Shown here piece after piece: positions 11,306 through 48,157 of a stretch of DNA of 56,614 nt. Source of the DNA: an uncultured Oscillospiraceae bacterium (GTDB taxonomy: Bacteria > Bacillota > Clostridia > Oscillospirales > Oscillospiraceae). The translations under genes were made by a program, and so were the position numbers. The DNA lies in the NCBI GenBank assembly GCA_944385365.1, contig CALWWW010000004.1, positions 71,297-127,910 on the forward strand, read 5' to 3'. Positions within the stretch are counted from its first letter, which is position 1, and every line of letters starts with the position of its first letter. The notes beneath the pieces were generated by a model. It saw nothing but the letters and a program-made list of their open reading frames with translations. It had not been told where the DNA came from and ran no database searches.

Positions 11306-14300
11306 ATGAAAGGAAACCATATGCAAACTCTGAAACTCTTCCGGCGGATGCTGGCCCTGGTTCTGACGGCGGCCACACTGCTGACGGTGGTTCCCACCGG
11401 CTTGACGGCCCATGCGGCCAGCTATCAGGACCCCTACCTCAATCAGATGGTGGAGTGGGGCTTCCTGCGTGGCGATATCGAAGGCAACCTGCGCCCGGAC
11501 AGCGCGATCACCCGGGCGGAATTTGTCACCATTGTCAACCGGGCCTTCGGGTATACCCGTACCGGTGAGATGCCCTTTACCGACGTGAAATCCAGCGACT
11601 GGTATGCCGATGACGTGTCCATTGCCTACAATGTGGGATACATACAGGGCACCTCTGAGAACACTTTTGCTCCCGAGCGGTCCATCACCCGGGAGGAGGC
11701 GGCTGCCATTCTGGCCCGGAACCTGATGCTCCAGGCCGCGTCGGGCGAAAATACCGACTTTACCGACAGCCGCGACATCAGCAACTGGAGCCGCGGCCTC
11801 ATTACCACCCTGGCCGACTATGAGATCATCGATGGCTACGCCGACGGCACCTTCCGGCCTCAGGCGCCCATTACCCGGGGCGAAACCGCCATTATGCTGG
11901 TCCGGGCCATTGGCACGCCGGTGCAGACCGCCGGTGTCCATTCCCTGGGAAATGTCTATGGCAATGTGACCATCAACACCTCCGGCGTGACGCTGCGCAA
12001 CACGGTCATTGCCGGTAACCTGTACATCACCGCCGGTGTGGCCGAGGGCAACGTGCTGCTGGAAAATGTGACGGTCCTGGGCGAAATTGTTGTCAGCGGC
12101 GGCGGCGTCAGCGAAAGCGGCGAAGACAGCGTGGTGCTGCGCAACGTCACCAGCCCCAAGCTGGTGCTGGACAATGTCAAGAACACCGAAGTGTCCGTGC
12201 GCCTGGAGGGCGACGGCGTTATCAATGTGGCCAGCATCCGCACCAACGCCTTTTTGGAGGACAGCACCCCCGCCGACTGCGGCGCGCTGCGCATTGAGCT
12301 GGACGGCGAGGATGGCCGCTCCCTGGAGCTGGCCGGCAATATCAAGGACGTCATCAACCTGACGCCAAAGTCCTATCTGAGCCTGGGTGCCGGACAAGCC
12401 CAGAGCATCACCATCGATGAGACCGCCACCGGCACCACTCTGAACATTGTGGCCGGAGCCGAGGTGGAAGAGGTCAATCTGGACACGGCTGCCACCATCA
12501 CCGGCGACGGCGATATCGGCAAGCTGACGGTCAACACCTCCGGCAGTACCGTGTCCATGCTGCCCGATGAAATCGTGATTCGTCCCGGCGAGACCGCTAC
12601 CATTGACGGAGAGAAAATGGACAGCGCCGCGGCGGCGGAGTCTTCTGCCGATCCCAGAATTCAGGCGGGCTATCCCAAGATGACCGATCTGGCCCCCACC
12701 ACGGCAACGGCCAGTTTCAGCACCAATAAGAAAGGCATCGTTTACTGGGCCGTCACCTCTGTGACCGACGGTTCTGTGGGCGCGGATGACCTGATCAGCC
12801 CGTCTTCTTACAGCCCCAAGGTTCTCAAGCAGGGCAGCGTGTCCATGGGCGGGGCCAATCAGGCGGCCACGGCCAAAATCTCCGGTCTTACCGCCGGCGG
12901 TTCCTACTATTTGTCTACCGTCTTTGTGGACGGACGGGAGGAACGCAGCCCGGTAAAGGTCATTTCCTTTACCACGCCGGACAACACGGCCCCGAACTTT
13001 GCAACGGGTTATCCCTATATGTCGCGGATTACCAATATTTCCGCCCAGGTGACCACCATGGCCACCAAGACCTGCCGCCTGTACTATGCCGTTCTGCCCA
13101 AGGGCGCGACGGCACCCACGGCGGAGGACTTCAAGGCCAACGCTGTCACCGGCAACCTGGGTTACGGCGCATTGGACGTGACCAAGAACAAGCCCTATAC
13201 CTTTGATGTCAACAGCGTTCCCCTGGAGGAACTGGCCGATTACGACCTGTACCTGTGGCTTACCGATATTGACGGCGGGGCCAGCTCGGCAGTCAAGAAG
13301 CTGAGCTTTACCACGGTGGACAAGACGCCGCCGGTGTTCAACACAGAGCCCACCATCAATAAGGTGGACAAGACCGCCGTGGGCCTGTATGCCAACCTCA
13401 ATGAGGACGGCACCCTGTATTGGGTCGTGGTCAAGCAGGGCGAGGTCTATCCCAAGCCCCTGGCAGGCCAGTCCGGCCCGGTGGATTGGTCCAGCGATAC
13501 GGCCAAGCTCCAGGTGTCGGCGGGCATGAACGCCCTCAAGAGCGGCAAGGTGACCATGACCGAGGGCAAGGATGTGAGCTTTACTGTCAGCGGCCTGGAC
13601 AACCAGCAGTCCTATGACCTCTACTATGTGGCCCAGGACAAGGCTGGAAACTATACCGCCAGCATCGGCAAGATCACCATCCATACCGAGGACGACAGCA
13701 AGCCCACCGTGACCCAGGAGTTTACCAAGTACAACGGTACGGAAACAAACCGTCCCCTGCCGGACTCGGACGTGCGTCTGGTGTTCAGTGAGCCGGTGCA
13801 GTCCGTGGCCACCAATACTCCCCTGGTGGATTACTATGACCAGGTGACCAAGGTCATCGGTCAGCCAACGGAAATGGATGCCCGTAACCAAATGGCTGCG
13901 GTGCTGGAAGAGGCCATTCAGCTGTATATCAATCCCACTGACAGCCAGCCGCAGCTGATTCCGGGTGCCACAGCGGATACGGATAAGGTGAATGATGACT
14001 GGACCATCGATTACCGCTATGCGGAAATCGTTTTGGAAGACAGCAAGACCGTTGTAATCTTCCCCTATGAGACGGGAGCCATCAACCTCAAGAGCGGTGC
14101 AAAATACTATTTTGAAATTGCTGCCAAGACCATTTCTGATACATCCCAGGCCCAGAACGTCATGGGTCAGACGAAACTGCCGGAGTTTGAGACGGTGTTT
14201 GCACAGGTCAATCTGTCTGTGGGCAATAATACAGAAACAGCCATCACCGAGGCGGTGTATAAGGACGGCCAGCCCGTGCAAAACCTGCCCACAGGCGGCG

Positions 14301-16294
14301 CGCCCATTGATCTCTACTGGCGTATGGACCCGGTTTCCACCCAAAAGGTGGAGAACTCCATCTGCTGGGATATGATTCTCTGGTCCAATACCCATGTGGA
14401 ATTTCAGCTGTTCCGGCGGGTCAGCGGCGCGCTGAACGACAAGTGGGAACTGGTGGGTACTTCTTCTATTATGGTGTCGGAGAACATTTCCAGAGCGGGC
14501 AACAGCCTTCGCATGAACCTGGAAGACCCCAACAATAACAATCCCACCTTTGACCAGCTGAATACCCTGAAAGAGGGCACGGTGTACGAATACGCCGTCA
14601 GCTTTACCAAGGTAGAGGGAGAACCGGACCGCAGCACCTGGAGCCAGACGATTACTTTTGATATCAACGTACTCGCCGGCAGCGGCCTGGAGCTGCCCCG
14701 GCTGGGTGCAGACGTTACCGAAAGCAAATGGGACGAACTGGTGGGTACTACGCTGACCAACATCAGCCTGCCGGAGACGCTGACGCTGCACAAGCCGTTC
14801 CGCGATCAGGCTGCCCCCCACTTTATCGGTGACCGGCCCACATTTACAGCCGGTGACTCCACCGTTCGGATGGACCTGATGCTGGACCGCATGGGCACCA
14901 TCTACTGGGTTGTTGCCAAGCGCGGCGATATCAGCACCCTCGGCACGGATGCAAACCGAACGGACTACAGCCCCATCGACAAGACGGACCCGAACATTTC
15001 GGATGAAGAATATTATAAGAACTATAATAAGTTGCCCGATTCTGGTTTGAACGATGGAATTGACAACAGCGGCAAAGGTGATTATGTAACACCGGTATCC
15101 ACGCCGCCCTATAACTGGATTGTGGATGCAGGCAAATATCTGGTCAGCGAGGATGTACAGAATGGTTCCCTGTCCTGCGGTGCCAGCGTCAAGACAGTGA
15201 CCGTAGACGGCTTGGTGCCCAATCAGGATTACATTGCCTATTTTGTCATTCAGGGTACGTCCCAGGTGTATTCTGATGTCTACTGTTATCGATTTACTAC
15301 CGGCGATGTGACAAAGCCGGTGTTGACCTTGCAGGAACTGAGCCCCAATGTTGCCATTCAAACTTCGGAAGACTCCGATGTAAACTTTGCGCTGTTTGCT
15401 GATACGCAGTTGCCGCAGGAGTTTAAGCGGACGTTCAGAAGCTATGTTGACACGAGCTTGTTGGAAGAATTTGATAAAGCGGCGGGAACAAAGAAAGATA
15501 CCATGACCATCCTCCAAGCGCTGATGCAGACCGGCACCGGCGGCTATTCCTGGTTTGATATCTATGCACAACCGCCGGCAAAACCGGGAGAGGGCGCCAA
15601 AATCCGTGATACGATTCAGCAGATCATCACCCGTGGTCAAGGCACCGGCGGTACGCCCGGAGTTGCAGACAGTACTACCACCACGGCCAATCAGGAGTAC
15701 AAGCATGACTTTTCCAATGACATGGACCCGAAGAGCGCAACCAATTACTACTGCATTGCGGTAGCCAAGAATGTACTGGGCGGCGACTATGCCTATAAGG
15801 CGGTTGGAAACGTCCATATCCCGGATACGACACCACCTACCATGACCATTCCCGGCGCAGACGGTGAGAGACAAACGGATGGCACATATAAGGGTACGCT
15901 GACGCTGGTGTTCAGCGAGGTGGTATACTGGATTCCGGAGGACCGCGATACCAGTAAAATCTGTGCGGTGGTTGAGAAAAATGGTGTGTCTGACGATCCC
16001 AAGACGGAAGATGGCAAACTGATACCGGGCAAAACTTCCATGCTGGCGCATATGGGCGGCAACGTTGGTACACTAAAGACCATGTCCAACGCATCGGATA
16101 CCGCCACGAACACCTTTACGTTCGACTATATCGGTGTCAGAGTGGGCAATACGTTGACGCTGTTCAAAGATGGCTTTATCAGTGACCGTTGGGGCAACAG
16201 TACCGTCAATACAATTACGCTTCGATATGAAGAAGTAAAGACCGGCACCGGCACCACATTTACCGCAGGCGGCTGGGTAATTGTCCAGTCATAA
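11306..16294 (+). CDS. Very large secreted SLH-domain surface protein (1662 residues)
   Basis: A signal peptide (to about residue 37, ...LTAHAAS) is followed by three SLH repeats (about 40-200; signatures GYIQGTSENTFAPERSITR and DGYADGTFRPQAPITRGE). Next comes a run of short beta-strand repeats (about 205-430: NVTINTSGVTLRNTVIAG, GNLYITAG) that looks like a beta-helix, then several repeats of 100-130 residues with DxTPP-type boundaries resembling bacterial Ig/FN3 modules. SLH repeats attach proteins to secondary cell-wall polymers. The start may be 11306 or, with its own AAAGGA, 11321. It is 17 bases after the PilZ gene. The role is unknown; it could be a surface-layer or wall scaffold. Confidence 0.85.
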   Translation: MKGNHMQTLKLFRRMLALVLTAATLLTVVPTGLTAHAASYQDPYLNQMVEWGFLRGDIEGNLRPDSAITRAEFVTIVNRAFGYTRTGEMPFTDVKSSDWYADDVSIAYNVGYIQGTSENTFAPERSITREEAAAILARNLMLQAASGENTDFTDSRDISNWSRGLITTLADYEIIDGYADGTFRPQAPITRGETAIMLVRAIGTPVQTAGVHSLGNVYGNVTINTSGVTLRNTVIAGNLYITAGVAEGNVLLENVTVLGEIVVSGGGVSESGEDSVVLRNVTSPKLVLDNVKNTEVSVRLEGDGVINVASIRTNAFLEDSTPADCGALRIELDGEDGRSLELAGNIKDVINLTPKSYLSLGAGQAQSITIDETATGTTLNIVAGAEVEEVNLDTAATITGDGDIGKLTVNTSGSTVSMLPDEIVIRPGETATIDGEKMDSAAAAESSADPRIQAGYPKMTDLAPTTATASFSTNKKGIVYWAVTSVTDGSVGADDLISPSSYSPKVLKQGSVSMGGANQAATAKISGLTAGGSYYLSTVFVDGREERSPVKVISFTTPDNTAPNFATGYPYMSRITNISAQVTTMATKTCRLYYAVLPKGATAPTAEDFKANAVTGNLGYGALDVTKNKPYTFDVNSVPLEELADYDLYLWLTDIDGGASSAVKKLSFTTVDKTPPVFNTEPTINKVDKTAVGLYANLNEDGTLYWVVVKQGEVYPKPLAGQSGPVDWSSDTAKLQVSAGMNALKSGKVTMTEGKDVSFTVSGLDNQQSYDLYYVAQDKAGNYTASIGKITIHTEDDSKPTVTQEFTKYNGTETNRPLPDSDVRLVFSEPVQSVATNTPLVDYYDQVTKVIGQPTEMDARNQMAAVLEEAIQLYINPTDSQPQLIPGATADTDKVNDDWTIDYRYAEIVLEDSKTVVIFPYETGAINLKSGAKYYFEIAAKTISDTSQAQNVMGQTKLPEFETVFAQVNLSVGNNTETAITEAVYKDGQPVQNLPTGGAPIDLYWRMDPVSTQKVENSICWDMILWSNTHVEFQLFRRVSGALNDKWELVGTSSIMVSENISRAGNSLRMNLEDPNNNNPTFDQLNTLKEGTVYEYAVSFTKVEGEPDRSTWSQTITFDINVLAGSGLELPRLGADVTESKWDELVGTTLTNISLPETLTLHKPFRDQAAPHFIGDRPTFTAGDSTVRMDLMLDRMGTIYWVVAKRGDISTLGTDANRTDYSPIDKTDPNISDEEYYKNYNKLPDSGLNDGIDNSGKGDYVTPVSTPPYNWIVDAGKYLVSEDVQNGSLSCGASVKTVTVDGLVPNQDYIAYFVIQGTSQVYSDVYCYRFTTGDVTKPVLTLQELSPNVAIQTSEDSDVNFALFADTQLPQEFKRTFRSYVDTSLLEEFDKAAGTKKDTMTILQALMQTGTGGYSWFDIYAQPPAKPGEGAKIRDTIQQIITRGQGTGGTPGVADSTTTTANQEYKHDFSNDMDPKSATNYYCIAVAKNVLGGDYAYKAVGNVHIPDTTPPTMTIPGADGERQTDGTYKGTLTLVFSEVVYWIPEDRDTSKICAVVEKNGVSDDPKTEDGKLIPGKTSMLAHMGGNVGTLKTMSNASDTATNTFTFDYIGVRVGNTLTLFKDGFISDRWGNSTVNTITLRYEEVKTGTGTTFTAGGWVIVQS

Positions 16295-16372: not shown

Positions 16373-19300
16373 ATGAAATTGAAGTGGAGCAGTCGATTGC
16401 TGGCGTTGCTGCTGTGTGCGGCGCTGCTGCCGATGCAGCTGTTTGTGCTGCCTGTGGCTGCTGCGACGCCGACGCTGAGAAATGTAATTGTCAGCAACGA
16501 AAACGTGACCCTGAAAGAGGGGCAAACCAAGGACCTGACCGCAACGGTGACCCTGAATGATAACTCAGCTTATACCGTGAACAGTGATACGCTTCCCAAG
16601 GATTTAAAGGTTACTTGGACAGTGGAAGATAACCGGGACGATGAGGTTTCGGTTGTAAAAACCGGAAATGGCCTGGGTGCGACAATAACGGCTTTGCGCG
16701 TGGCAGATACCAACGAGCGTGTCAAAGAAGTGACTGTCCAGGTAACAGCAGAACTGAATGGAAAATTCAGCTATGCCACCTGCAAGGTCCTGGTGCAAAC
16801 GGAGGACCCGGCAGGTGTCACGGTTACGCCTGCCACACAGGAGATTGCGCCGGGCGGTAAAATCCAGCTCCATGCTACGGTAAAGCCGGAGACAAACCCA
16901 CCGGCCACAGTGACCTGGAGCTCCAAAAATCCAGCCATAGCCACGGTGGACAGTAATGGATGGCTGACCGGTGTCAGCGCGGGCAAAACCGAAATTACCG
17001 CCACAGCAGGCAACAATGTGGGTACCTGCGCTGTGACGGTGTTGGGTATCGTGCTGAAAGAAACGTCTGTCACCCTGCGGGAGCGGGGCAATCATACATT
17101 ACAGTATGAGGTGTTCGGTTCCACCCTGCAAAAGCAAAAAATTGAATGGACCAGCAGCGATTCCACGGTGGTGACCGTGCAGGACGGCTATCTGTATGGT
17201 CTCAAGGAGGGCACTGCTACCATCACGGCCAAAATCAGCGGCAGCACTTACTCCGCCACCTGTGAGGTCAAGGTGGAACGCAACACCGCCGATCCCATTA
17301 CTGTATCTGTGGATTCCGGCGAGCCGGTAGCGTTCTCGAGCCTGGTAAGCCGCATCCAAAGCGAGTGCAGCGATGTGCTGGGACGGACCCTCAGCCATGT
17401 GGGCGGCTTTAATCTTACCACCGCAGAGGGAACTCTGTACTACCGCTACCAGTCCGACTCGGACACCGGCGCGGGCATCGGTGCGGGCGAGATGTATTAT
17501 GTCAATCCTTCCCTGGCCCAGCGGGGTCTCAGTGATGTGACCTTTGTCCCCAAGGCGGATTTCAGCGGTAAAGCCGTCATCTCCTACACCGGCTATGCCG
17601 ATGCAACCACCTTCTTCCAGGGTACCATTGAGGTTACGGTGGCCCAGGTGGAGGACATCGCCTATACGATTGCAGCCAATAAGCCGCTGCAATTCAACGC
17701 CGATGACTTCAACCGCCTCTGCCGCAGCCGCACCGGCCGCGACCTGGCCAGCGTCTCCTTCTCCCTGCCCGACAGCAGCCGGGGAACACTCTATTACCGC
17801 TACTCCGCCGGCGCTTCCTACAATACCCCGGTAGAGGCGACCAAGGAGTACAAGCTCAACGGCTCCCCTTCCCTGAATGATGTCTACTTTGTGCCCAGCA
17901 ACGGATACAGCGGTGAAGTGGTGCTGTCCTTCTTGGCCAGAGACGTCAACGGCACATCGTTCCGCGGCAGTGTGCGTGTCCAGGTTTCCAAAGCCTCCGG
18001 TAATGGTGATATCAACTACACCATCACCAAGGGCGGATGGATCACCATGGATGAAAGCGACTTCAACAGCCTGTGCCGCAGTGCCACGGGCTACACCCTG
18101 GATTACATCCGCTTCACCCTGCCGCCTACCAGCCAGGGTAAACTCTACTATAACTATTCCGGCAGTTCCGGCGGCTACAGTGACGAGGTCACCGCCGACC
18201 GCAACTACTATTATAACAGTACGCCGTATCTGCGCCGTGTAACCTTTGCGGCAGCCGACTCCTACACCGGTACGGTCAATATTCCGTTCCGGGCCTGGGA
18301 TACCAAGGGCAACCAGTTCAGCGGCACCGTCTCCATTGTGGTGGAAACCAACGACGGCAGCGGCATCCGCTATACGGCTTATCAGGGTGGTAAAGTCACC
18401 TTTGACGATACGGACTTCAACAGTGAGTGCCAGAAGGTCACCGGTTCCAGCCTCAGCTATGTCAAGTTTGCGCTGCCGTCGTCCTCCCAGGGCGCGCTGT
18501 ACTACAACTACACCAGCAGCGGCAACTATGACAGCGCCGTGACCAGCAGCCGGAAGTATTACCGCTACTCCACCCCGTATCTGGACAAAGTGACCTTTGT
18601 CCCCCACAGCAGTTTCGTCGGCACGGCCACCATCCAGTATACCGGATGGGCCAGCAACGGCAGGAGCTTCAACGGCACCGTCACCATTGACGTTTACAAC
18701 TCGGCGCAGCAGATTGCCTACACGGTCCGCAGCGGCGGTGTGGCCGATCTGAATGCGGTGGATTTTGACCGTCTCTGTGAATATTACACCGGCGATCCCC
18801 TGCGCTACGTCCGCTTTACCCTGCCCTCCTCCTCCCGCGGCGTGCTGTACTACGACTATAACAGCACCAGCGGCAGCTACGGCAGCAAGGTGTCGTCCTA
18901 CACCAATTACTATTATTCCTCCAGCCCCTATCTGGAGCGGGTGTCCTTCGTGGCGGACGAAAGGTATGCCGGGACCTTTGAGATTTCCTTCACCGGTTGG
19001 AGCACCGGCGGAAAATCCTTTAAGAGTACCATCGAGATCACCGTAGAGGCGCCCCAGGGTCCGACAACCATCTATTACACGGCGGTCAACGGAACGGTGG
19101 ACTTCCAGAGCAGCGATTTCGTGTCGGCCTGTGATGACCGCGGCTTGGGCAGCCTCTCGTCGGTGCGGTTCCAGCTGCCTTCGTCCAGTCAGGGTAAACT
19201 GTACTACCGGTACAGCAGTACCCAGAGCAGTTCTACCCCCGTCCAGAGCACGACATCCTATTACCCCTCCTCCACCCCGCGTATTTCCGATGTCACCTTT

Positions 19301-19960
19301 GTGGCGGCGGCGGGATTCACCGGTGTGGTTACGGTGACCTATACAGGCACCGACAGCCGGGGCAATACCTATCAGGGACAAATCCGCGTCAATGTACCGG
19401 TTGCCGGTACCTCCCGTTATTTTAACGATCTGACCAATTACGCCTGGGCCGTGTCCTCCATCGACCGGCTGTATGAGCTGGGCGTGGTTACAGGAACCGG
19501 CGGCGGCCGCTACAGCCCCCAGAACAGCATCTCTCGCGGTGACTTTATGCTGATGCTGGACCGGGCCTTCGGCTTTGCCGATGTGTCAGGCACGGGCTTT
19601 ACCGATGTACCGGCGGGCAGCTACTACGCTTCCGCCATTGCGTCGGCCAAGGCGCTGGGCATTGCCACCGGTTACGCCAACGGTACGTTCCAGCCCAATG
19701 CGCCGGTGACGCGGCAGGATGCCATGGTATTTCTGAAACGGGCCATGGTTGCCGACGGCTGGAGCCTGAGCAACGGCGACCGGTTGGTGCTCCAGGGCTT
19801 CCGGGATGGCGCCTATGTGGCGGAATATGCCGTGGATGCCGTATCCACAATGGTAAGTTATGGGATTCTCACGGGCAACAACAACAATCAGCTGAACCCC
19901 ACCGCCTACATGTCCCGAGCGGAAATGGCTGTGGTGTTGACCAGAGTGCTGGATTTGTAA
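16373..19960 (+). CDS. Secreted SLH-domain protein with Ig-like domains and six internal repeats (1195 residues)
   Basis: A signal peptide (about 1-30, ...LPVAAA) is followed by Big_2-like Ig domains (about 35-300; TVTWSSKNPAIATVDSNGWLTGVSAG is typical). Then come six copies of a 110-120-residue module starting near residues 306, 428, 544, 663, 778 and 898. Each has a DF-x-x-x-C motif, a LPSSSQGxLYYxY-like strand and a FVxxxxxxG / TGWxxxG end. Three SLH repeats (about 1019-1195) close the protein, so the anchor is C-terminal, whereas in the upstream neighbour it is N-terminal. I do not recognise the repeat. A strong terminator lies 72 bases downstream. Confidence 0.85.
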   Translation: MKLKWSSRLLALLLCAALLPMQLFVLPVAAATPTLRNVIVSNENVTLKEGQTKDLTATVTLNDNSAYTVNSDTLPKDLKVTWTVEDNRDDEVSVVKTGNGLGATITALRVADTNERVKEVTVQVTAELNGKFSYATCKVLVQTEDPAGVTVTPATQEIAPGGKIQLHATVKPETNPPATVTWSSKNPAIATVDSNGWLTGVSAGKTEITATAGNNVGTCAVTVLGIVLKETSVTLRERGNHTLQYEVFGSTLQKQKIEWTSSDSTVVTVQDGYLYGLKEGTATITAKISGSTYSATCEVKVERNTADPITVSVDSGEPVAFSSLVSRIQSECSDVLGRTLSHVGGFNLTTAEGTLYYRYQSDSDTGAGIGAGEMYYVNPSLAQRGLSDVTFVPKADFSGKAVISYTGYADATTFFQGTIEVTVAQVEDIAYTIAANKPLQFNADDFNRLCRSRTGRDLASVSFSLPDSSRGTLYYRYSAGASYNTPVEATKEYKLNGSPSLNDVYFVPSNGYSGEVVLSFLARDVNGTSFRGSVRVQVSKASGNGDINYTITKGGWITMDESDFNSLCRSATGYTLDYIRFTLPPTSQGKLYYNYSGSSGGYSDEVTADRNYYYNSTPYLRRVTFAAADSYTGTVNIPFRAWDTKGNQFSGTVSIVVETNDGSGIRYTAYQGGKVTFDDTDFNSECQKVTGSSLSYVKFALPSSSQGALYYNYTSSGNYDSAVTSSRKYYRYSTPYLDKVTFVPHSSFVGTATIQYTGWASNGRSFNGTVTIDVYNSAQQIAYTVRSGGVADLNAVDFDRLCEYYTGDPLRYVRFTLPSSSRGVLYYDYNSTSGSYGSKVSSYTNYYYSSSPYLERVSFVADERYAGTFEISFTGWSTGGKSFKSTIEITVEAPQGPTTIYYTAVNGTVDFQSSDFVSACDDRGLGSLSSVRFQLPSSSQGKLYYRYSSTQSSSTPVQSTTSYYPSSTPRISDVTFVAAAGFTGVVTVTYTGTDSRGNTYQGQIRVNVPVAGTSRYFNDLTNYAWAVSSIDRLYELGVVTGTGGGRYSPQNSISRGDFMLMLDRAFGFADVSGTGFTDVPAGSYYASAIASAKALGIATGYANGTFQPNAPVTRQDAMVFLKRAMVADGWSLSNGDRLVLQGFRDGAYVAEYAVDAVSTMVSYGILTGNNNNQLNPTAYMSRAEMAVVLTRVLDL

Positions 19961-32444: not shown

Positions 32445-33455
32445 ATGGCAGAGGTTCTGTCGCAGAGCCAAATCGACGCATTGCTCAGCGCCGCACGAAG
32501 CGGAGAGATGGATCTGTCCGCTTCGGCGGAAAAGAACGAAAAAAAATATCGAAAATATGACTTTTACAGCCCGAGAAAGTTTACCAAAGACCGGCTGAAA
32601 ATGCTCAATGGCATCTTTGAGAACTATACCAGGCTCATCAATTCCCGTATCAATGCACAGCTGCACACCACCTGTGAGATACAGGTGGAATCGGTGGAAG
32701 AGCAGCGCTACTACGAGTTTTCCAACGGCCTGTCGGAAGGAGATGTGCTGGCGCTGTCAGATGTCTGTGTAGAACAGCGCGCCGAACCCGATGCACAGCC
32801 GGTGCTGTTCCATTACACCACCACCTTGATGCTCAGCATGATGGACCGCCTCATGGGCGGCGATGGAGACTTGGGCAACAAGATTTCCGGCGGCTATACG
32901 ATGACCAATCTGGAGCTGAAGCTCTATGAGAGCATGGTCAAGGATATGATTACACCGTTGGGCAGCAGCTGGGAAAACTACGTCGATCTGGACTTTCAGT
33001 ACCGCAGGGTGGAAACCAACCCCACACTGGTACAGCTGATTGGTCTGGATGAGACGGTGGTCATAGTCGGCATCAACATCCGGTTTTCCAACTGTGAGGG
33101 ACGGCTGAACATCTGTCTGCCGGGCCTGACGCTGACCAACATCTTCACCCGGATTGTGGCGGCCAACCAAACAGGCCGCGGCAGCGGCGAAGACAATCGC
33201 CAGGAGATCATGGATATTCTGCGGGATTCGGAGTTGGATGTGGTGGCCGAGCTGGGACGGACCAAGCTGCAGCTGCAGGACATCTATTTCCTCCATGCGG
33301 GCGATGTGATCGATCTGGGACAGCCCGCATCGGGCACCATTCAGCTGTATGTGGGCAATGCGCCCTGGTTCAGCGGCAAGATCGGCACGCAGAACAAGAA
33401 TATGGCCGTGAAGATCATGGAGACCTATGACAATCAGGGAAGAAGGGAACAGTAG
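32445..33455 (+). CDS. fliM: Flagellar motor switch protein FliM
   Basis: 336 residues. The N-terminal CheY-P-binding peptide (EVLSQSQIDALLSA, residues 3-16), the CheC-like middle domain with GGYTMTNLELKLYESMVKDMI, and the C-terminal SpoA domain (VVAELGRTKLQLQDIYFLHAGDVIDLGQ) are all present. FliM receives CheY-P and controls the switch. The next gene, fliY, starts four bases after its stop. Confidence 0.97.
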   Translation: MAEVLSQSQIDALLSAARSGEMDLSASAEKNEKKYRKYDFYSPRKFTKDRLKMLNGIFENYTRLINSRINAQLHTTCEIQVESVEEQRYYEFSNGLSEGDVLALSDVCVEQRAEPDAQPVLFHYTTTLMLSMMDRLMGGDGDLGNKISGGYTMTNLELKLYESMVKDMITPLGSSWENYVDLDFQYRRVETNPTLVQLIGLDETVVIVGINIRFSNCEGRLNICLPGLTLTNIFTRIVAANQTGRGSGEDNRQEIMDILRDSELDVVAELGRTKLQLQDIYFLHAGDVIDLGQPASGTIQLYVGNAPWFSGKIGTQNKNMAVKIMETYDNQGRREQ

Positions 33456-33459
33456 GGCT

Positions 33460-34935
33460 ATGGAGCAGAACATATTTAGCGCAATGGAATTGGACGCCAT
33501 TGGCGAGGTCATGAATATCAGCCTGGGATCCTCGGCTACGGCGGTGTCCAATCTGTTGGACCATCGTGTGGATATCACAACGCCGTCGGCGTCGTTGGTG
33601 TCGGTGGAAGATTTCTCACTGGGCGCTTTGGAACCGGCTATCGCCGTGGAAATCAAGTATGTGTCCGGTCTGGAAGGCAGCAATATTATGCTGCTAAAGC
33701 GCGGCGACGTAAAGGTGATCGTGGATATTCTCATGGGCACGGAAATGTCCGATGAGGAGTTCGAGTTTAATGATCTGACCATCAGCGCCGTCTGCGAGGT
33801 CATGAATCAAATGATGGGCGCTTCGTCCACGGCCCTGTCGGATTTTCTGGGGCGGCCCGTTAACATCTCAACGCCGAAGTCCTACACCCTGGATGATTTG
33901 CCCACGTTCAAGGAGGAGCACTTCAAGGGCGTCAATGGTCCCCTGGTGGTGGTGCGCTTTATGCTGCGCATCGAAAATGTCCTCAACAGTGAATTTGTCA
34001 ACGTCATGTCCGTGGATTTGGCCCGGGAGTTGCTGAGCGGTTTTGGCATGGACTTCAGCAACATGTCGGAGTCTGCTGCTGCTCCGGCTCCCGCTGCAGA
34101 ACCTGCTGCGACGCCTGCCCCGGCTCCCGCGTCGGATTCCGGCGGCGTCCTGAGTCAGGAACAGATCGAACGCCTGATGGGCGGCGGCGGCGCAGCGCCT
34201 GCGCCTGCATCGGCACCGGCATCGGATTCCGGCGGTGTCCTGAGCCAGGAACAGATCGAACGCCTGATGGGCGGCGGCGGTGGCGCTGCCACACCGGCCC
34301 CCTCCCCTGCCCCAGCTCCGGCGGCATCCTCCGGCGGCACTTTGAGCCAGGAGGAGATCGAACGTCTGATGGGCGGCGGCGCAGCAGCAGCCCCGGCTCC
34401 GCAGCCGGCGGCAGCCCCGCAGCCCGCGGCGGCCCAGCCGGCCTATCAGCAGCCGGCAGCGGCGGCTTCGCAGCCCGTATACCAGCAGCCGGCGTATCCC
34501 CAGCCGGGCTATCCGCAGCCGATGTACCAGCAGCCCATGTATCAGCAGCCGGTTTATCAGCAGCCCATGTACCCCCAGCAGGAGCCCAAGGTCATCAGTG
34601 CCCGCCCCCTGCAGATGGAGCCGCTGGACGTGGCCCAGCAGATCGGCGAAGAGCAGGCCCAGAACCTGGAGCTCATCATGTCGGTTCCGCTGGAGGTATC
34701 GGTGGAAATCGGCCGCACAAGACGCAAGGTGGAGGACATCCTCACCTTCTCCAAGGGGTCCCTGGTGGTGCTGGACAAACTGGCCGGCGATCAGGTGGAC
34801 CTGTTTGTCAACGGGCTGTGCGTGGCCCGTGGCGATGTGGTAGTGGTAGACGACAACTTCGGCGTTCGTATCACCGAGGTGCTCCGCCAGCCGGGGCTGC
34901 TGAATTTGTCTGCAAATAATCCTCAGAAGAATTGA
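33460..34935 (+). CDS. fliY: Flagellar motor switch phosphatase FliY (CheC + FliN domains), with triplicated CheY-binding-like peptide
   Basis: 491 residues. The N-terminal CheC-like domain has two complete phosphatase motifs: D12-E16-N19-P42, and a second S-AVC-E-VM-N with Pro 23 residues on. The C-terminal FliN/SpoA domain is about residues 405-485 (SVPLEVSVEIGRTRRKVEDIL). B. subtilis FliY begins with a FliM-type CheY-binding peptide; here the protein starts directly with the CheC domain. Instead the long Pro/Ala/Gln/Tyr linker carries three copies of LSQEQIERLMGGG-like sequence, at residues 231-240, 261-270 and 295-304. The start at 33460 follows the fliM stop at once. Confidence 0.95.
   Translation: MEQNIFSAMELDAIGEVMNISLGSSATAVSNLLDHRVDITTPSASLVSVEDFSLGALEPAIAVEIKYVSGLEGSNIMLLKRGDVKVIVDILMGTEMSDEEFEFNDLTISAVCEVMNQMMGASSTALSDFLGRPVNISTPKSYTLDDLPTFKEEHFKGVNGPLVVVRFMLRIENVLNSEFVNVMSVDLARELLSGFGMDFSNMSESAAAPAPAAEPAATPAPAPASDSGGVLSQEQIERLMGGGGAAPAPASAPASDSGGVLSQEQIERLMGGGGGAATPAPSPAPAPAASSGGTLSQEEIERLMGGGAAAAPAPQPAAAPQPAAAQPAYQQPAAAASQPVYQQPAYPQPGYPQPMYQQPMYQQPVYQQPMYPQQEPKVISARPLQMEPLDVAQQIGEEQAQNLELIMSVPLEVSVEIGRTRRKVEDILTFSKGSLVVLDKLAGDQVDLFVNGLCVARGDVVVVDDNFGVRITEVLRQPGLLNLSANNPQKN
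34130..34395 (+). repeat. Tandem coding repeats in the fliY linker (CheY-binding-like peptides)
   Basis: Units 1 and 2 (motif Leu codons at 34150 and 34240) are spaced exactly 90 bases apart and are almost identical in DNA, pointing to a recent duplication. Unit 3 (Leu codon at 34342) is more diverged. Each encodes SGG-x-LSQEQIERLMGGG surrounded by Ala/Pro. Confidence 0.85.
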
Positions 34936-34953: not shown

Positions 34954-35319
34954 ATGGCCAAGATTATGATTGTTGACGATGCCGCATTTATGCGCAAGGT
35001 GATCCGCGACACCCTCTCCAAAAATGGGTATACCGATCTTCACGAAGCGGTGGACGGTGCGGACGCCGTGGAAAAGTACTTTGAGCTGAAGCCGGACCTG
35101 GTCCTCATGGACATCACGATGCCCAACATGGACGGCCTGGAGGCCCTGAAGGCCATTCGCGCCAAGGACAGCAATGCGAATATAGTAATGTGTTCTGCCA
35201 TGGGCCAGGAGGCCATGGTTGTGGAGGCCGTGCAGTCCGGTATCAAGGACTTTATCGTCAAGCCGTTTAAGGAGGATCGTCTCATGAAGGCCGTGACCTC
35301 CATCGTGGGCAATCCCTGA
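34954..35319 (+). CDS. cheY: Chemotaxis response regulator CheY
   Basis: A 121-residue single receiver domain with acidic pair D8-D9, phospho-acceptor D53 (VLMDITMPNMDG), the Ser/Thr switch residue in MCSAMGQ and the conserved Lys in IVKPFKEDR. CheY-P binds FliM, and probably FliY, to switch the motor. The start at 34954 has AAGGA eight bases upstream, so it is preferred to the ATG at 34945. The stop shares a base with fliO (TGATG). Confidence 0.96.
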   Translation: MAKIMIVDDAAFMRKVIRDTLSKNGYTDLHEAVDGADAVEKYFELKPDLVLMDITMPNMDGLEALKAIRAKDSNANIVMCSAMGQEAMVVEAVQSGIKDFIVKPFKEDRLMKAVTSIVGNP

Positions 35320-38522: not shown

Positions 38523-40628
38523 ATGAACAAAATTCTCAACAACGCCATATCGCTGATGGTCGTGGTCATCGTGTTGTTCCTGGTGATCCCCCTGCCGGCG
38601 TTCATGCTGGACATACTGCTCATTATCAACATCTCCATGTCCATCCTGATCCTGATGATCACCATGAACATCAAGGAGACGCTGGAATTTTCCATTTTCC
38701 CATCGCTGCTGTTGATCACAACGCTATTCCGATTGGGATTGAATGTATCCTCCACCCGATTGATCCTGTCCGAGGGCGGCAATGCCGGTGTGGTCATAAA
38801 ATCCTTCGGTACGCTCATCACCCGCGGCAATATCGTCATCGGCGTGCTGATCTTCCTGATCATCGTTCTGGTGCAGTTCATCGTTATCACAAAGGGCGCG
38901 GAGCGTGTCTCCGAAGTGGCGGCCCGCTTTACCCTGGACGCCATGCCCGGTAAGCAGATGGCCATCGACGCCGACTTGAGCTCCGGCCTCATCGATGAAA
39001 AAGAGGCCCGGCAGCGGCGCTACAAGATTCAGAAGGAAGCTGACTTCTATGGCGCTATGGACGGCGCCACCAAGATCGTCAAGGGCGACGCCGTCATGTC
39101 CCTGATCATTACGGTCATCAACTTTGTGGCCGGCGCCATCATCGGTATTGTCCAGGGTGGCGGCGACATCGGCACCGTCATCAGCACCTATTCCATCGCC
39201 ACCATCGGTGATGGTCTGGTGTCCCAGATTCCGGCCCTGATGATCTCCACGGCCACGGGTATGATTGTCACCCGTTCCGTGTCCGACGGCAGCCTGAATA
39301 CGGATGTCATCGGACAGTTCAAGGCCCAGCCCCGGGCCATCCTGTCCACCGGCATCATCCTGATTTTCCTGGCGGTTATCCCCGGTACGCCGACGGTTCC
39401 GCTGGTTCTGGTGGGCGGTGCTTTGGGCGTCGGCGGCTTCGTCAGCTCCAAACGGATGGAGCAGCAGAAGCTCATGCCCCCACTGGAGGAAGCGGCGCCC
39501 ACAGCAGCGGCCCAGGAGGTCCAGGCCCCCAGCGAGGCCGATTACTTCAAGGATATCAACAACGTCTATTCCCTGCTCAGTGTGGAACCCATCGAAATGG
39601 AGTTCGGCTACAGCCTGATTCCGTTGGTGGATGAAAGCAGCGGCGGCAAGCTGATCAGCCGCATTGTCATCTTCCGCCGTCAGTTTGCGCAGGATATGGG
39701 CTTTGTCATCCCCTCCATCCGTCTCCATGACGGCGCGGCGCTGGGCACCAACCAATATGTCATCAAGATTCGCGGCGAGGAAGTGGCTTCCGGTGAAATC
39801 CTGGTGGACTATTACCTGGCGCTGGAGCCCGCCAACCCCAGCGGCGAAATCGACGGTATTGAAACCGTGGAACCGGCTTACGGTATTCCGTCCCGGTGGA
39901 TTCTGCCGGAGAACAAGGAGATGGCCGAAATCTATGGCTATACGGTGATTACGCCGCTGACAGTCATGCTGACCCATCTGTCGGAAACCGTCAAGAAGCA
40001 CGTCCACGAGCTGGTCAACCGTACGGAGACCATGCAGCTGGTGGAAAACCTCAAGAAGACCGAACCCGATCTGGTGGCTGACGCCATTCCCAATATTGTC
40101 ACCTACGCCAACCTAGAGAAGATTCTCAAGAATCTGCTGCGGGAGGGCATTCCCATCAAGGACCTGAGCGCCATCCTGGAAACCATCGTGGATGTGGGCG
40201 CCACCACACGGGATATGGACCTGATTACCGAGCAGGTCCGCAGCGCGTTGAGCCGTACCATTACCCGCAAGTTCTGCGAAAACGGCCAGCTGCGGGTGGT
40301 GACGCTGGACGCCGAGGTGGAGACCAAGATTCTGTCGGCGCTGACAAAGAACGAACACGGCGTCTATCTGGCGCTGAGTCCCGAGATTATGCAGCAGATC
40401 ATCGCGGAACTGGGCGAGCTGCGTAAAAAGTTCAACGAGCTGTCTCAGACGCCCATTGTGCTGACCAGCCAGGTCATCCGCGTCTATGTCAGCCGGATGA
40501 TTGCCCAGTTCTATCCCGATGTCTACGTGCTGTCGTTCAATGAGATCACCAGCAACGTCCAGATTCAGGCCATCGGCAATATCACCCTGCCCGCCAAGGA
40601 GAAACGCACCGAGAGTAAAGGACGGTAA
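38523..40628 (+). CDS. flhA: Flagellar type III export protein FlhA
   Basis: 701 residues. About eight N-terminal membrane helices include the FHIPEP-family region (GAERVSEVAARFTLDAMPGKQMAIDADLSSGLIDEKEARQRR), and the large cytoplasmic domain (about 340-690) docks chaperone-substrate complexes. It forms the nonameric ring of the export gate. In most Clostridia flhF and flhG follow; here fliA follows directly. Confidence 0.97.
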   Translation: MNKILNNAISLMVVVIVLFLVIPLPAFMLDILLIINISMSILILMITMNIKETLEFSIFPSLLLITTLFRLGLNVSSTRLILSEGGNAGVVIKSFGTLITRGNIVIGVLIFLIIVLVQFIVITKGAERVSEVAARFTLDAMPGKQMAIDADLSSGLIDEKEARQRRYKIQKEADFYGAMDGATKIVKGDAVMSLIITVINFVAGAIIGIVQGGGDIGTVISTYSIATIGDGLVSQIPALMISTATGMIVTRSVSDGSLNTDVIGQFKAQPRAILSTGIILIFLAVIPGTPTVPLVLVGGALGVGGFVSSKRMEQQKLMPPLEEAAPTAAAQEVQAPSEADYFKDINNVYSLLSVEPIEMEFGYSLIPLVDESSGGKLISRIVIFRRQFAQDMGFVIPSIRLHDGAALGTNQYVIKIRGEEVASGEILVDYYLALEPANPSGEIDGIETVEPAYGIPSRWILPENKEMAEIYGYTVITPLTVMLTHLSETVKKHVHELVNRTETMQLVENLKKTEPDLVADAIPNIVTYANLEKILKNLLREGIPIKDLSAILETIVDVGATTRDMDLITEQVRSALSRTITRKFCENGQLRVVTLDAEVETKILSALTKNEHGVYLALSPEIMQQIIAELGELRKKFNELSQTPIVLTSQVIRVYVSRMIAQFYPDVYVLSFNEITSNVQIQAIGNITLPAKEKRTESKGR

Positions 40629-40633
40629 TTGCC

Positions 40634-41461
40634 ATGACGACCATGACAAGATATGACGGCAGTACCGCCATGGCCACGGACGGACCCGAAGAGGGACCGG
40701 ACACCGGCCAGGAGAGCAGTGAGTCTCTGCTGCGGCGGTACAAGGAAACCGGAGACGACGCCCTCAAATGGGAGCTGGTTCTGCGGTTTGAAAATCAAAT
40801 CCGCCGCATCGCCACCCGGGCCTATGGCGTGGGATTGGGCGGCAATCAGCTGGAGGATGTGGTCCATGAGGGACTGCTGACGCTGCTGGGGGCCGTGGAC
40901 CGCTTCGACCCGGACAAAGGCGTGAAGCTGGAAACCTATGTGACCAAACGGCTGCGGGGCATGATGATCGATCTGAGCCGCAAGGAGGATTGGCTGCCCC
41001 GCCAGCTGCGGCAGAAATTCACCAAGGTCAACCGGGCGGTGGATGAGCTGTCCGTGGAACTGGGCCGCACGCCCTACAGCTGGGAGGTGGCCCGCCGATT
41101 GGGCATGAGCCTGAAGGAGTATGAAAAGACCCTGTCGGAGACGGCGGGCGCCAACTTGATGTCCTTTGAGATGCTGCTGGACGCCTACGGCAGCGTCACA
41201 GGCCAGCCGCTGGAGCGGCAGGAACGGCTGGACTCGCCGGAGGTTCACTTCGAGGAGCAGGAGCTCCACAAGGCGTTGATCACAGGCATCGAAAACTTGC
41301 GGCCCAACGAACAGTTGGTGCTATCGCTATACTATGAAAAAGAATTGACCATGAAGGAGATCGCCGAGGTGCTGGGCATCAGCGCCCCACGGGTCTCGCA
41401 GATTCACAGCCATGCCATTGCGCGGCTGCGAACGCACCTGAAGGAGCAGATGGCGCAGTAG
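40634..41461 (+). CDS. fliA: RNA polymerase sigma-28 factor FliA (SigD)
   Basis: 275 residues. Region 2 (LEDVVHEGLLTLLGAVDRFDPDKGVKLETYVTKRLRGMMIDLSRKEDWLPR), region 3 and region 4 with a helix-turn-helix (MKEIAEVLGISAPRVSQIHSHAIARLR) follow the FliA/WhiG pattern. It should direct late flagellar and chemotaxis promoters, for which candidates precede flagellin, cheA, fliD and the chemoreceptor. It lies five bases after flhA. The gene for an anti-sigma FlgM is not in the window. Confidence 0.95.
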   Translation: MTTMTRYDGSTAMATDGPEEGPDTGQESSESLLRRYKETGDDALKWELVLRFENQIRRIATRAYGVGLGGNQLEDVVHEGLLTLLGAVDRFDPDKGVKLETYVTKRLRGMMIDLSRKEDWLPRQLRQKFTKVNRAVDELSVELGRTPYSWEVARRLGMSLKEYEKTLSETAGANLMSFEMLLDAYGSVTGQPLERQERLDSPEVHFEEQELHKALITGIENLRPNEQLVLSLYYEKELTMKEIAEVLGISAPRVSQIHSHAIARLRTHLKEQMAQ

Positions 41462-46469: not shown

Positions 46470-47369
46470 TCATGATTGGGTATGACGAGGTGCTTCCAGC
46501 ACCTGTTTGCAGGCGTAAATCACTTGAGCTGTTACCATGGAATCAAACTTGGCTTCCAAAAAGCTCAGCATGGGACGGTAGGACTGTTCCGGCAGGACCA
46601 CATATTTGGCCGGGAGCCGGGACAGGGCCAGGGCCATGGAGTCGGCCAGACAGCGGGGGCAGCAGCACAACTGGAACATATGGGCGTAATATTCCACCTT
46701 CTGGCTCACCAGATATTCCATGACGTTGATCATCCGGGACCCATCGGGCAGAATTTGACGGGTTGCCGCCGCTTCCGGGTCCGGCGGCACAACCGAAACG
46801 GTTGTATTTACCTCCGGCGTGGGCTCCGGTACGGACGCGGGTTCCGAAGACGCTTCCGCTGCGGGCGCAATGGCGGGAGATGCTGCGGGTGCCGGTTCCG
46901 GTGCAGGCTCGGATACAGGCAGCGGGGCCGATTCCAGAATCGGGGCCGGTTCCTCCATGGAAACCGGCTCGGGCATGGCGGCTGATTCAGGCACGGCTTC
47001 CGGAATCGGTACTGATACCGGCTCAGGCGGTGCAGCAGGAGCCGGCTGGGGCATGGGTTCCGATACAGGCGGAGCGGCAACATCCTCTTCCAGCGCCGCT
47101 TCCAACGCCTGATGAATGGTTGCTTCTAGGGCTTCGTTGTTGGTGCGGGCCACTTCCAGAATGGGCGGAGACAGCCGCTGCGGGGCGCTGGGCGGTGCTT
47201 CCGTGGCTGGGGCAGCAGCCACAGCAGGCACCGCCGCCGGACTCTCTTCGCTGGGGGCTTCGGCTGCTGCCGGAACCTCTTCCGCGGCCGGTTCCTGGGC
47301 GCTGCTGTTGGACAGCAGGCTCAGAACGTGGTCGGTCTTGCTGCTGCGTGTGTTTTTTTTGGTTGCCAT
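46470..47369 (-). CDS. ComFB-domain protein with long Pro/Ala-rich N-terminus
   Basis: 299 residues. After a short basic start (MATKKNTRSSK), about 190 residues are almost pure Pro/Ala/Glu/Ser/Val. The C-terminal ~85 residues match ComFB: NVMEYLVSQKVEYYAHMFQLCCCPRCLADSMALALSRLPAKYVV, with a CxxC pair and an extra Cys. ComFB-type domains have been reported as cyclic-di-nucleotide binders in some bacteria; that function here is inference. Its start overlaps the parA stop (TGATG), so the two are translationally coupled. Confidence 0.8.
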   Translation of the reverse strand: MATKKNTRSSKTDHVLSLLSNSSAQEPAAEEVPAAAEAPSEESPAAVPAVAAAPATEAPPSAPQRLSPPILEVARTNNEALEATIHQALEAALEEDVAAPPVSEPMPQPAPAAPPEPVSVPIPEAVPESAAMPEPVSMEEPAPILESAPLPVSEPAPEPAPAASPAIAPAAEASSEPASVPEPTPEVNTTVSVVPPDPEAAATRQILPDGSRMINVMEYLVSQKVEYYAHMFQLCCCPRCLADSMALALSRLPAKYVVLPEQSYRPMLSFLEAKFDSMVTAQVIYACKQVLEAPRHTQS

Positions 47370-48157
47370 CAGTCTACCTCCTCAGCGGGCAGGGGGAAGA
47401 CATCACCGGCAATTTCGTCACACAGGGCTGCAAAGTCCAGGGCGGGCTTGGAGCGGGGGGCGTAGTCGTTAATGCTCTGGCCATGGGCCGGGGCCTCTGC
47501 CACGGAAACGCTGCTGCGAATTTTGCTGTCAAATACCCGGGTGTTCAGCTGCCGGGCAATCTCCTGGGCCAGCTCCAGCATTTCCCGGCTGAGATTCAGC
47601 CGGCCGTTGTAGCGGTTGAGCAGAATGCCAAGAACCTGGAGACGGGAGTTGTAATAGCTGCGGACGCTTTCGATGGTCTCCTTGATCTGGGATACGCCCA
47701 GGAGGCTCAAAACCTCCGGCGCCATGGGGATGATGAGAGTGTCGGAGGCCACATAGGCGTTGACCGTGAGAATATTCAGGGCCGGGGGCGTGTCAATGAG
47801 AATGTAGTCGTAATTGTCAGAGACCTTGGACAGGGCGGCTTTGAGAAGAAATTCCCGTCCGGGCTTGTTGAATTCCAGTTCAGCGGCGGAAAGCAGAATG
47901 TTGGACGGCAGAATATCACAGACGTCCGTGGGACGGATCACATCCGACGGCTCTTCGACGCCGCGGAAGACGTCGTAAATGGTGGCGCAATGCTCGATGT
48001 CCAGACCCATGCTGAAGCCGAGACTGCCCTGGGGGTCCAGGTCCACGCCCAGGACCCGGGCGCCCCGCTGGGACAGGCAGGACAGCAGAGCGGCGGCGGT
48101 GGTGGTTTTACCGACGCCGCCTTTCTGGTTGGTGATGGCGGTGATGGTGGCAGGCAT
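47369..48157 (-). CDS. ParA/Soj-family ATPase without ParB
   Basis: 262 residues. The deviant Walker A motif K12-GGVGKTT, the Walker A' region VLGVDLDPQGSLGFSMG and DYILIDTPPALNILTVNA are typical of ParA/Soj. No parB or parS-like cluster is seen, and the next gene encodes the ComFB protein. It lacks the FlhG-type N-terminal helix with DQA, so it is not FlhG. ParA relatives such as ParC or PomZ position chemoreceptor arrays or other structures; a similar role here is inference. AGGAGG lies 12 bases before the ATG. Confidence 0.88.
   Translation of the reverse strand: MPATITAITNQKGGVGKTTTAAALLSCLSQRGARVLGVDLDPQGSLGFSMGLDIEHCATIYDVFRGVEEPSDVIRPTDVCDILPSNILLSAAELEFNKPGREFLLKAALSKVSDNYDYILIDTPPALNILTVNAYVASDTLIIPMAPEVLSLLGVSQIKETIESVRSYYNSRLQVLGILLNRYNGRLNLSREMLELAQEIARQLNTRVFDSKIRSSVSVAEAPAHGQSINDYAPRSKPALDFAALCDEIAGDVFPLPAEEVD

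Follow-up and report, generated by a model that had tools for sequence, protein, structure and literature searches.

In FliY, the N-terminal peptide LSQXEIDALL is described as responsible for the interaction with phosphorylated CheY (CheY-P), with the next domain promoting dephosphorylation (PMC7595845). The alpha4/alpha5 groove of CheY is reported to hold the FliM peptide, and all motile bacteria are stated to have EIDALL in their FliM and FliY (PMC9126983). The locus studied here raises the question of what peptides of this type might do in a FliY that has none at its N-terminus and several in its interdomain linker. It is located in a 56,614-nucleotide stretch from an uncultured Oscillospiraceae bacterium (contig CALWWW010000004.1, positions 71,297 to 127,910), the whole of which is referred to as the window.

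The fliY locus of the window

The features relevant to this question are the following.

32445..33455, + strand: fliM, with the N-terminal peptide LSQSQIDALL at 32457-32486
33460..34935, + strand: fliY, encoding a CheC-linker-FliN switch phosphatase of 491 aa (Pfam CheC 6e-23, FliMN_C 1.8e-21)
33460..34059, + strand: CheC-like phosphatase domain, approximately aa 1-200 of FliY, with ExxN motifs E16/N19 and E113/N116
34112..34280, + strand: tandem repeat enclosing linker units 1 and 2 (Tandem Repeats Finder: 90-base period, 91% matches, 1.9 copies)
34150..34179, + strand: linker unit 1, LSQEQIERLM, aa 231-240
34240..34269, + strand: linker unit 2, LSQEQIERLM, aa 261-270, in the 90-base repeat with unit 1
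34342..34371, + strand: linker unit 3, LSQEEIERLM, aa 295-304
34399..34600, + strand: rest of the FliY linker, Pro/Gln-rich, with 15-base period repeats at 34470-34573
34663..34887, + strand: FliN-type C-ring domain, approximately aa 402-476 of FliY (domain match)
34954..35319, + strand: cheY, the presumed ligand gene, directly downstream of fliY

The encoded FliY scores 312.7 bits against NCBIfam NF005995 (curated cut-off 218), and a domain search places a FliN domain at its C-terminus. Both ExxN motifs are invariant in a 55-sequence alignment. The closest solved CheC domain is that of T. maritima FliY (4hyn, 1.7e-28, aa 7-195); the 4hyn chain of 202 residues matches the CheC part, and the source text available for T. 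maritima FliY mentions no linker array.

The neighbouring FliM begins with MAEVLSQSQIDALLSA, a classical docking peptide, in agreement with an earlier note made from the sequence of the window. Translation of 33460-34935 also bears out the claim that the FliY N-terminus (MEQNIFSAMELDAIGEV) is devoid of a CheY-docking peptide. As this peptide is missing, the window protein is a FliY variant rather than a typical FliY. The CheC and FliN domains are joined by a Pro-, Ala- and Gln-rich linker of approximately 200 residues, and it is here that the three FliM-type peptides proposed in the earlier note were found, at aa 231-240, 261-270 and 295-304. Successive units are spaced by 90 and then 102 bases, and the near-identity of units 1 and 2 at exactly 90 bases was likewise recovered, with 91% matches within the repeat. 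Each unit has the docking core [LM]-[ST]-Q-x-x-I-x-x-[LM]-[LM]; in the six-frame open stretches >60 aa across the window, this pattern is confined to FliM (one copy) and FliY (three copies).

A second linker repeat at 34470-34573, with a 15-base period, encodes QP-x-Y-Q-like units and is shorter in the related loci L033 and L097. Matches of the linker to TAL effectors in a PDB search were repeat-on-repeat artefacts, with no stretch passing on its own. No CheY-FliM complex was recovered when the PDB was searched with the 30-residue N-terminal part of FliM. Elsewhere in the window, between chemotaxis and flagellar genes, 11306-16294 and 16373-19960 (both + strand) encode two very large proteins with what appear by eye to be S-layer-homology-like repeats.

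Conservation, copy number and origin of the linker units

Relatives were collected from three sources. A family protein search matched 59 of 300 genomes at 1e-20, of which 30 loci were kept; the best 80 of 552 relatives from named genomes were retained; and class and phylum relatives were sought with a FliY model, adding 80 further stretches. Linker units were present in 98 distinct FliYs, which carry 230 units in total, with one unit in 15 proteins, two in 43, three in 32, four in 7 and five in 1. The strict pattern leaves 14 near-miss stretches in 14 of the 98 FliYs, roughly half of which are probably decayed units, and the copy numbers are therefore slight underestimates. Composition shuffling of the 98 linkers (200 shuffles) gave a mean of 0.135 units and a maximum of 2, compared to the 230 observed, which rules out a chance or compositional origin. 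With ORFs that match CheC, FliM or FliN domains excluded, the pattern was found in none of 6987 ORFs of at least 70 aa from 311 loci; some FliN-only proteins also carry it.

The units are strongly conserved position by position (n=230): L/M in 230, S in 221, Q in 230, E in 190 and E in 210 at positions 1 to 5, followed by I in 228, E in 223, R/K in 172, L/M in 230 and M/L in 223 at positions 6 to 10. Ala takes position 8 in 43 units. The residue before a unit is usually Ser or Gly and the one after usually Gly, and the inter-unit spacer drifts. Free drift of the segment had been named in the earlier note as grounds for abandoning its proposal; the opposite was seen, with S-Q-x-x-I-E-x-[LM]-[LM] retained across the 230 units while the flanks drift as a Pro/Ala/Glu/Gln spacer. 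For the first unit, 4130 between-species pairs display 73% identity, with 56% of the codons for identical residues differing compared to 53% expected at saturation. Synonymous sites are thus saturated between species while the unit is kept, which reflects selection rather than drift. Both CheC ExxN motif patterns are also retained, in 97 and 98 of the 98 proteins.

The units resemble known docking peptides without being identical to them. Position 7 is E in 223/230 linker units and D/N in 126/129 N-terminal FliY peptides; A8 is found in 113/129 of the latter. The FliM peptide, kept in 95 of the 97 array loci with FliM, has D7 in 95/95 and A8 in 89/95. Hence, the linker units depart from the EIDALL peptide both in the D/N7 and A8 pair and in their location away from the N-terminus. 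With E7 and mostly R/K8, their affinity or partner may differ. The FliM peptide nonetheless shares the core of the units, is encoded by the neighbouring gene and likely has the same ligand, the differences being its single N-terminal copy and D7. Compared to B. subtilis FliY, the array proteins have the same CheC/FliN order, two ExxN motifs and LSQxxIxxLL core (PMC7595845); the B. subtilis type has one N-terminal peptide, whereas array FliYs have none there and one to five in the linker, as E and R/K variants.

Copy number varies between relatives. The window FliY has three units, L033 two, and L097 one intact unit plus a first unit decayed to LSQEQIERLT, a case of unit loss by point change. 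On a FastTree tree of the 98 FliYs, unit number changed at least 33 times, with some changes reflecting decay. The earlier note had suggested that copy number may vary among strains; variation between species was confirmed on trees. Units within one protein are 91% alike, compared to 73% for first units between species. The first unit follows the CheC end by a median of 36 residues, and median linker lengths for one to four units are 158, 190, 210 and 224 aa (15, 43, 32 and 7 FliYs), corresponding to median increments of 32, 20 and 14 residues. The linker-array FliY is a real, selected and widespread architecture with a changing number of units.

The origin of this architecture was traced on a tree of 271 FliY rows built from the CheC and FliN domains with the linker omitted. 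These rows were drawn from 297 loci with a FliY ORF; rows were dropped when their domains were identical to those of another row, when the number of strong CheC matches was other than one, or when they were partial. The array label requires two changes for its 98 rows, interpreted as a single gain and a single loss (row L197); of the 99 rows descending from the ancestor that the array rows share, 98 have one unit or more. One of six search patterns used on named genomes derived from the motif itself; when that source is left out, a unit is present in 30 of the 31 clade rows that remain. A second tree, model-based and with 87 rows, left out 18 named long-branch or low-scoring rows; it combined 28 array rows (11 selected, the others random), the first 26 rows without a motif, 30 N-terminal rows (14 selected from the window's family, the others random) and all three N-terminal-array rows. 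The array clade, comprising the 28 sampled array rows and L197, has support of 100/98, and forcing L197 outside it is rejected (p 1e-4). By record names the clade covers Oscillospiraceae, Lachnospiraceae, Butyricicoccaceae and Anaerovoracaceae, with some records called Paenibacillaceae, and many linker-array bacteria come from animal guts.

The branches next to the array clade hold 14 long-linker FliYs without a motif. Some FliN-only proteins carry LSQxEIDALL at their N-terminus, and the linker motif could conceivably be the old N-terminus of a fused FliN. As the FliYs nearest the array clade are without any motif, this origin was rejected, a late gain being the better fit. The 172 rows outside the 99-row clade form an uneven sample of best matches and hand-picked weak or split ones, and comprise 132 N-terminal-type, 36 no-motif and 3 N-terminal-array rows and one chance case. 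Row L153, scored as N-terminal plus linker, has a chance match at the CheC end. The N-terminal peptide is hence usual, not universal, in FliY, with 37 of 271 rows scored as no-motif, a few of which, L250, L267 and L271 among them, have degenerate or masked N-termini.

A distinct arrangement was found in three members of the window's family (genus g9; L241, L246 and L249), which form a separate clade with three to five tandem docking-like units placed before CheC. One example starts with LSQEEIEAMM followed by MSPEAIAAML repeats. Joining this clade with the linker-array clade is rejected (AU p 5e-5), and unlike the linker-array genomes these genomes have FlhF.

As a separate observation, seven loci (L208, L209, L211, L214, L215, L275 and L288) encode FliYs 532-805 aa long that have multiple CheC matches and in which no peptide was found; L209, L211, L214 and L215 have a separate FliN with N-terminal L(S/T)Q(A/E)EIDALL.

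FlhF, FlhG and chemotaxis gene content

CheY-P is not the sole user of the FliY N-terminal region. FlhG binds FliY in B. subtilis (PMC12826062), and in Geobacillus the N-terminal 36 residues of FliY are reported as necessary and sufficient for FlhG binding (PMC12327844). Genomes were consequently searched for FlhF, FlhG and CheA. At a FlhF threshold of 1e-30, matches were obtained in 24/24 N-terminal-type genomes taken from the highest-ranking FliY matches elsewhere in the class and phylum and in 3/3 N-terminal-array genomes. There were none in 30 array genomes (completeness of 90% or more in 22), in 11 no-motif genomes, mainly neighbours of the array clade, or in four N-terminal-type genomes of the window's family. 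The retention of the N-terminal peptide by these four, despite the lack of FlhF, is consistent with another use for it, for instance in CheY-P binding.

The FlhG query was run on 46 genomes. In 10/10 N-terminal-type genomes outside the family, its matches began at residue 1-3 and scored 3.1e-52 or better; those in the three N-terminal-array genomes were good but shorter (7e-41 to 3e-46). Across 22/22 array genomes the query reached 2e-24 at best, with MinD/ParA-like matches only, such relatives being expected. FlhF and FlhG were thus not found in the array genomes tested, unlike the B. subtilis-type setting. This extends to the draft genome of the window (91% complete), where no FlhF match exceeds the cut-off and the FlhF/FlhG pair was not recovered.

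Within the window, flhA is directly followed by a gene for a FliA-type sigma factor (38523-41461), with flhF and flhG missing in between; in Bacillus, flhF and flhG sit between such genes. The flagellar cluster also contains, on the - strand (46470-48157), a ParA/MinD-like ATPase gene (47369-48157) and an Ala/Pro-rich partner (46470-47369). This ATPase is not among the listed FlhG-query matches of the window's genome, and is a possible stand-in for FlhG.

A CheY-like ORF was present in the fetched locus, the loci differing in length, for 98/98 array, 99/132 N-terminal, 22/37 no-motif and 0/3 N-terminal-array FliYs. CheA was found in all 56 genomes searched for it, 15 of them with a no-motif FliY, so that loss of chemotaxis is not supported as the cause of the missing motifs. 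A CheY-like ORF accompanies FliY in every one of the 14 long-linker no-motif sister rows and in L197, and CheA was found in 13/13 tested genomes among these 15. Because these no-motif relatives keep both genes, the array is dispensable and its role would be modulatory.

Candidate roles of the linker array

We consider it probable, at about two chances in three, that the linker array acts as a multivalent docking arm for CheY-P that serves the tethered phosphatase. The earlier note had proposed a CheY-P bait of this kind; its placement in the linker and the varying copy number both stand on trees, and CheY-P binding itself we infer from the likeness to FliM and FliY peptides, the CheC domain with ExxN, the CheY-like ORF in 98/98 loci and the absence of FlhF/FlhG. 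The starting state would have been a single N-terminal peptide, used in the B. subtilis type for CheY-P and in Geobacillus/Bacillus also for FlhG. In a lineage without recognisable FlhF/FlhG the N-terminal peptide is missing, and a related peptide presumably arose once in the flexible CheC-FliN linker and multiplied by tandem duplication, so that the units would be docking peptides both relocated and amplified. Each unit may fold into a short helix that fits the CheY groove formed by helices 4 and 5. Acting with avidity, the units would concentrate CheY-P at the C-ring and pass it to the CheC phosphatase, their number tuning local signal removal, and FliM would retain its single peptide for switching.

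An AlphaFold model of FliY and CheY as one read-through chain is poor (mean pLDDT 62, pTM 0.50, 20 sequences). In it, units 1 and 2 are short helices with block-mean pLDDT of 61 and 56 in a linker of ~40, unit 3 is not helical (block means 44 and 43) and the FliN domain is below 50, with no contacts reported for the model; the two helices are a weak hint. Against the docking reading, T. maritima FliY was reported to bind activated CheY no better than inactive CheY (PMC7355467).

It is also conceivable, though rather unlikely, that the units bind a partner other than CheY, such as FliM, FliN, CheC, CheD, or a ParA-like ATPase encoded in the flagellar cluster that substitutes for FlhG. The combination of E7 and R/K8 does set them apart from the FliM peptides and from nearly all N-terminal peptides of FliY, and the window's ParA-like gene lies ~12 kb from fliY, with weak ParA/MinD-like matches at 12-14 kb in seven FlhG-less array relatives. 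Against this, their S-Q-x-x-I-x-x-[LM]-[LM] core is the CheY-docking core. We regard FlhG itself, recruited by the units for C-ring assembly in place of the N-terminal 36 residues that suffice in Geobacillus, as an unlikely partner, with FlhF in 0/30 array genomes and the FlhG query giving only MinD/ParA-like matches in 22/22. In all 41 tested genomes with neither the N-terminal FliY peptide nor FlhF, the linker units are unlikely to serve FlhG docking, and the comparison with N-terminal-type genomes outside the family points the same way; FlhG docking accordingly has very little probability.

A purely mechanical role, in which short helices interrupt the Pro/Ala-rich arm and determine how far it extends or how soluble it is, without a specific ligand, would agree with the rise in median linker length from 158 to 224 aa with unit number and with the sister FliYs that retain long linkers without motifs. 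We judge it improbable, as an invariant Q, near-invariant I and E, and the likeness to a known docking core are unexpected of a spacer. The least credible account makes the units a functionless product of recent slippage: the 91% repeat of window units 1 and 2, and the greater likeness of units within proteins than between species, are what slippage would leave, yet units are kept across several families despite saturated synonymous sites, and in all but one of the 99 rows under the array ancestor. Conservation refutes neutrality as a full account, although copy number itself may be near-neutral.

Returning to the CheY-P docking arm, a wider proposal can be attached to it, one that we hold tentatively and with somewhat more doubt than confidence: loss of FlhF/FlhG may have freed the docking peptide from assembly duty, the peptide may then have been re-established in the linker as an array, the copy number of this array may serve as an evolvable gain control, and multivalent baiting may have been invented at least twice in FliY, the two inventions meant being the linker array and the N-terminal array. 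None of the titles or abstract starts among the open-access full-text matches listed describes docking peptides or arrays in the FliY linker, subscription literature being outside the scope of that search. This Clostridia clade and the further no-motif FliYs break the universality of EIDALL as stated for FliY in PMC9126983. The N-terminal peptide region of FliY has two known users, CheY-P and FlhG; as FlhG is apparently gone in the array clade, the two jobs may be separated in nature. If the docking arm operates as proposed, capture and destruction of CheY-P there would increase with the number of units, and unit number would offer a handle on how local removal of CheY-P at the motor shapes switching.
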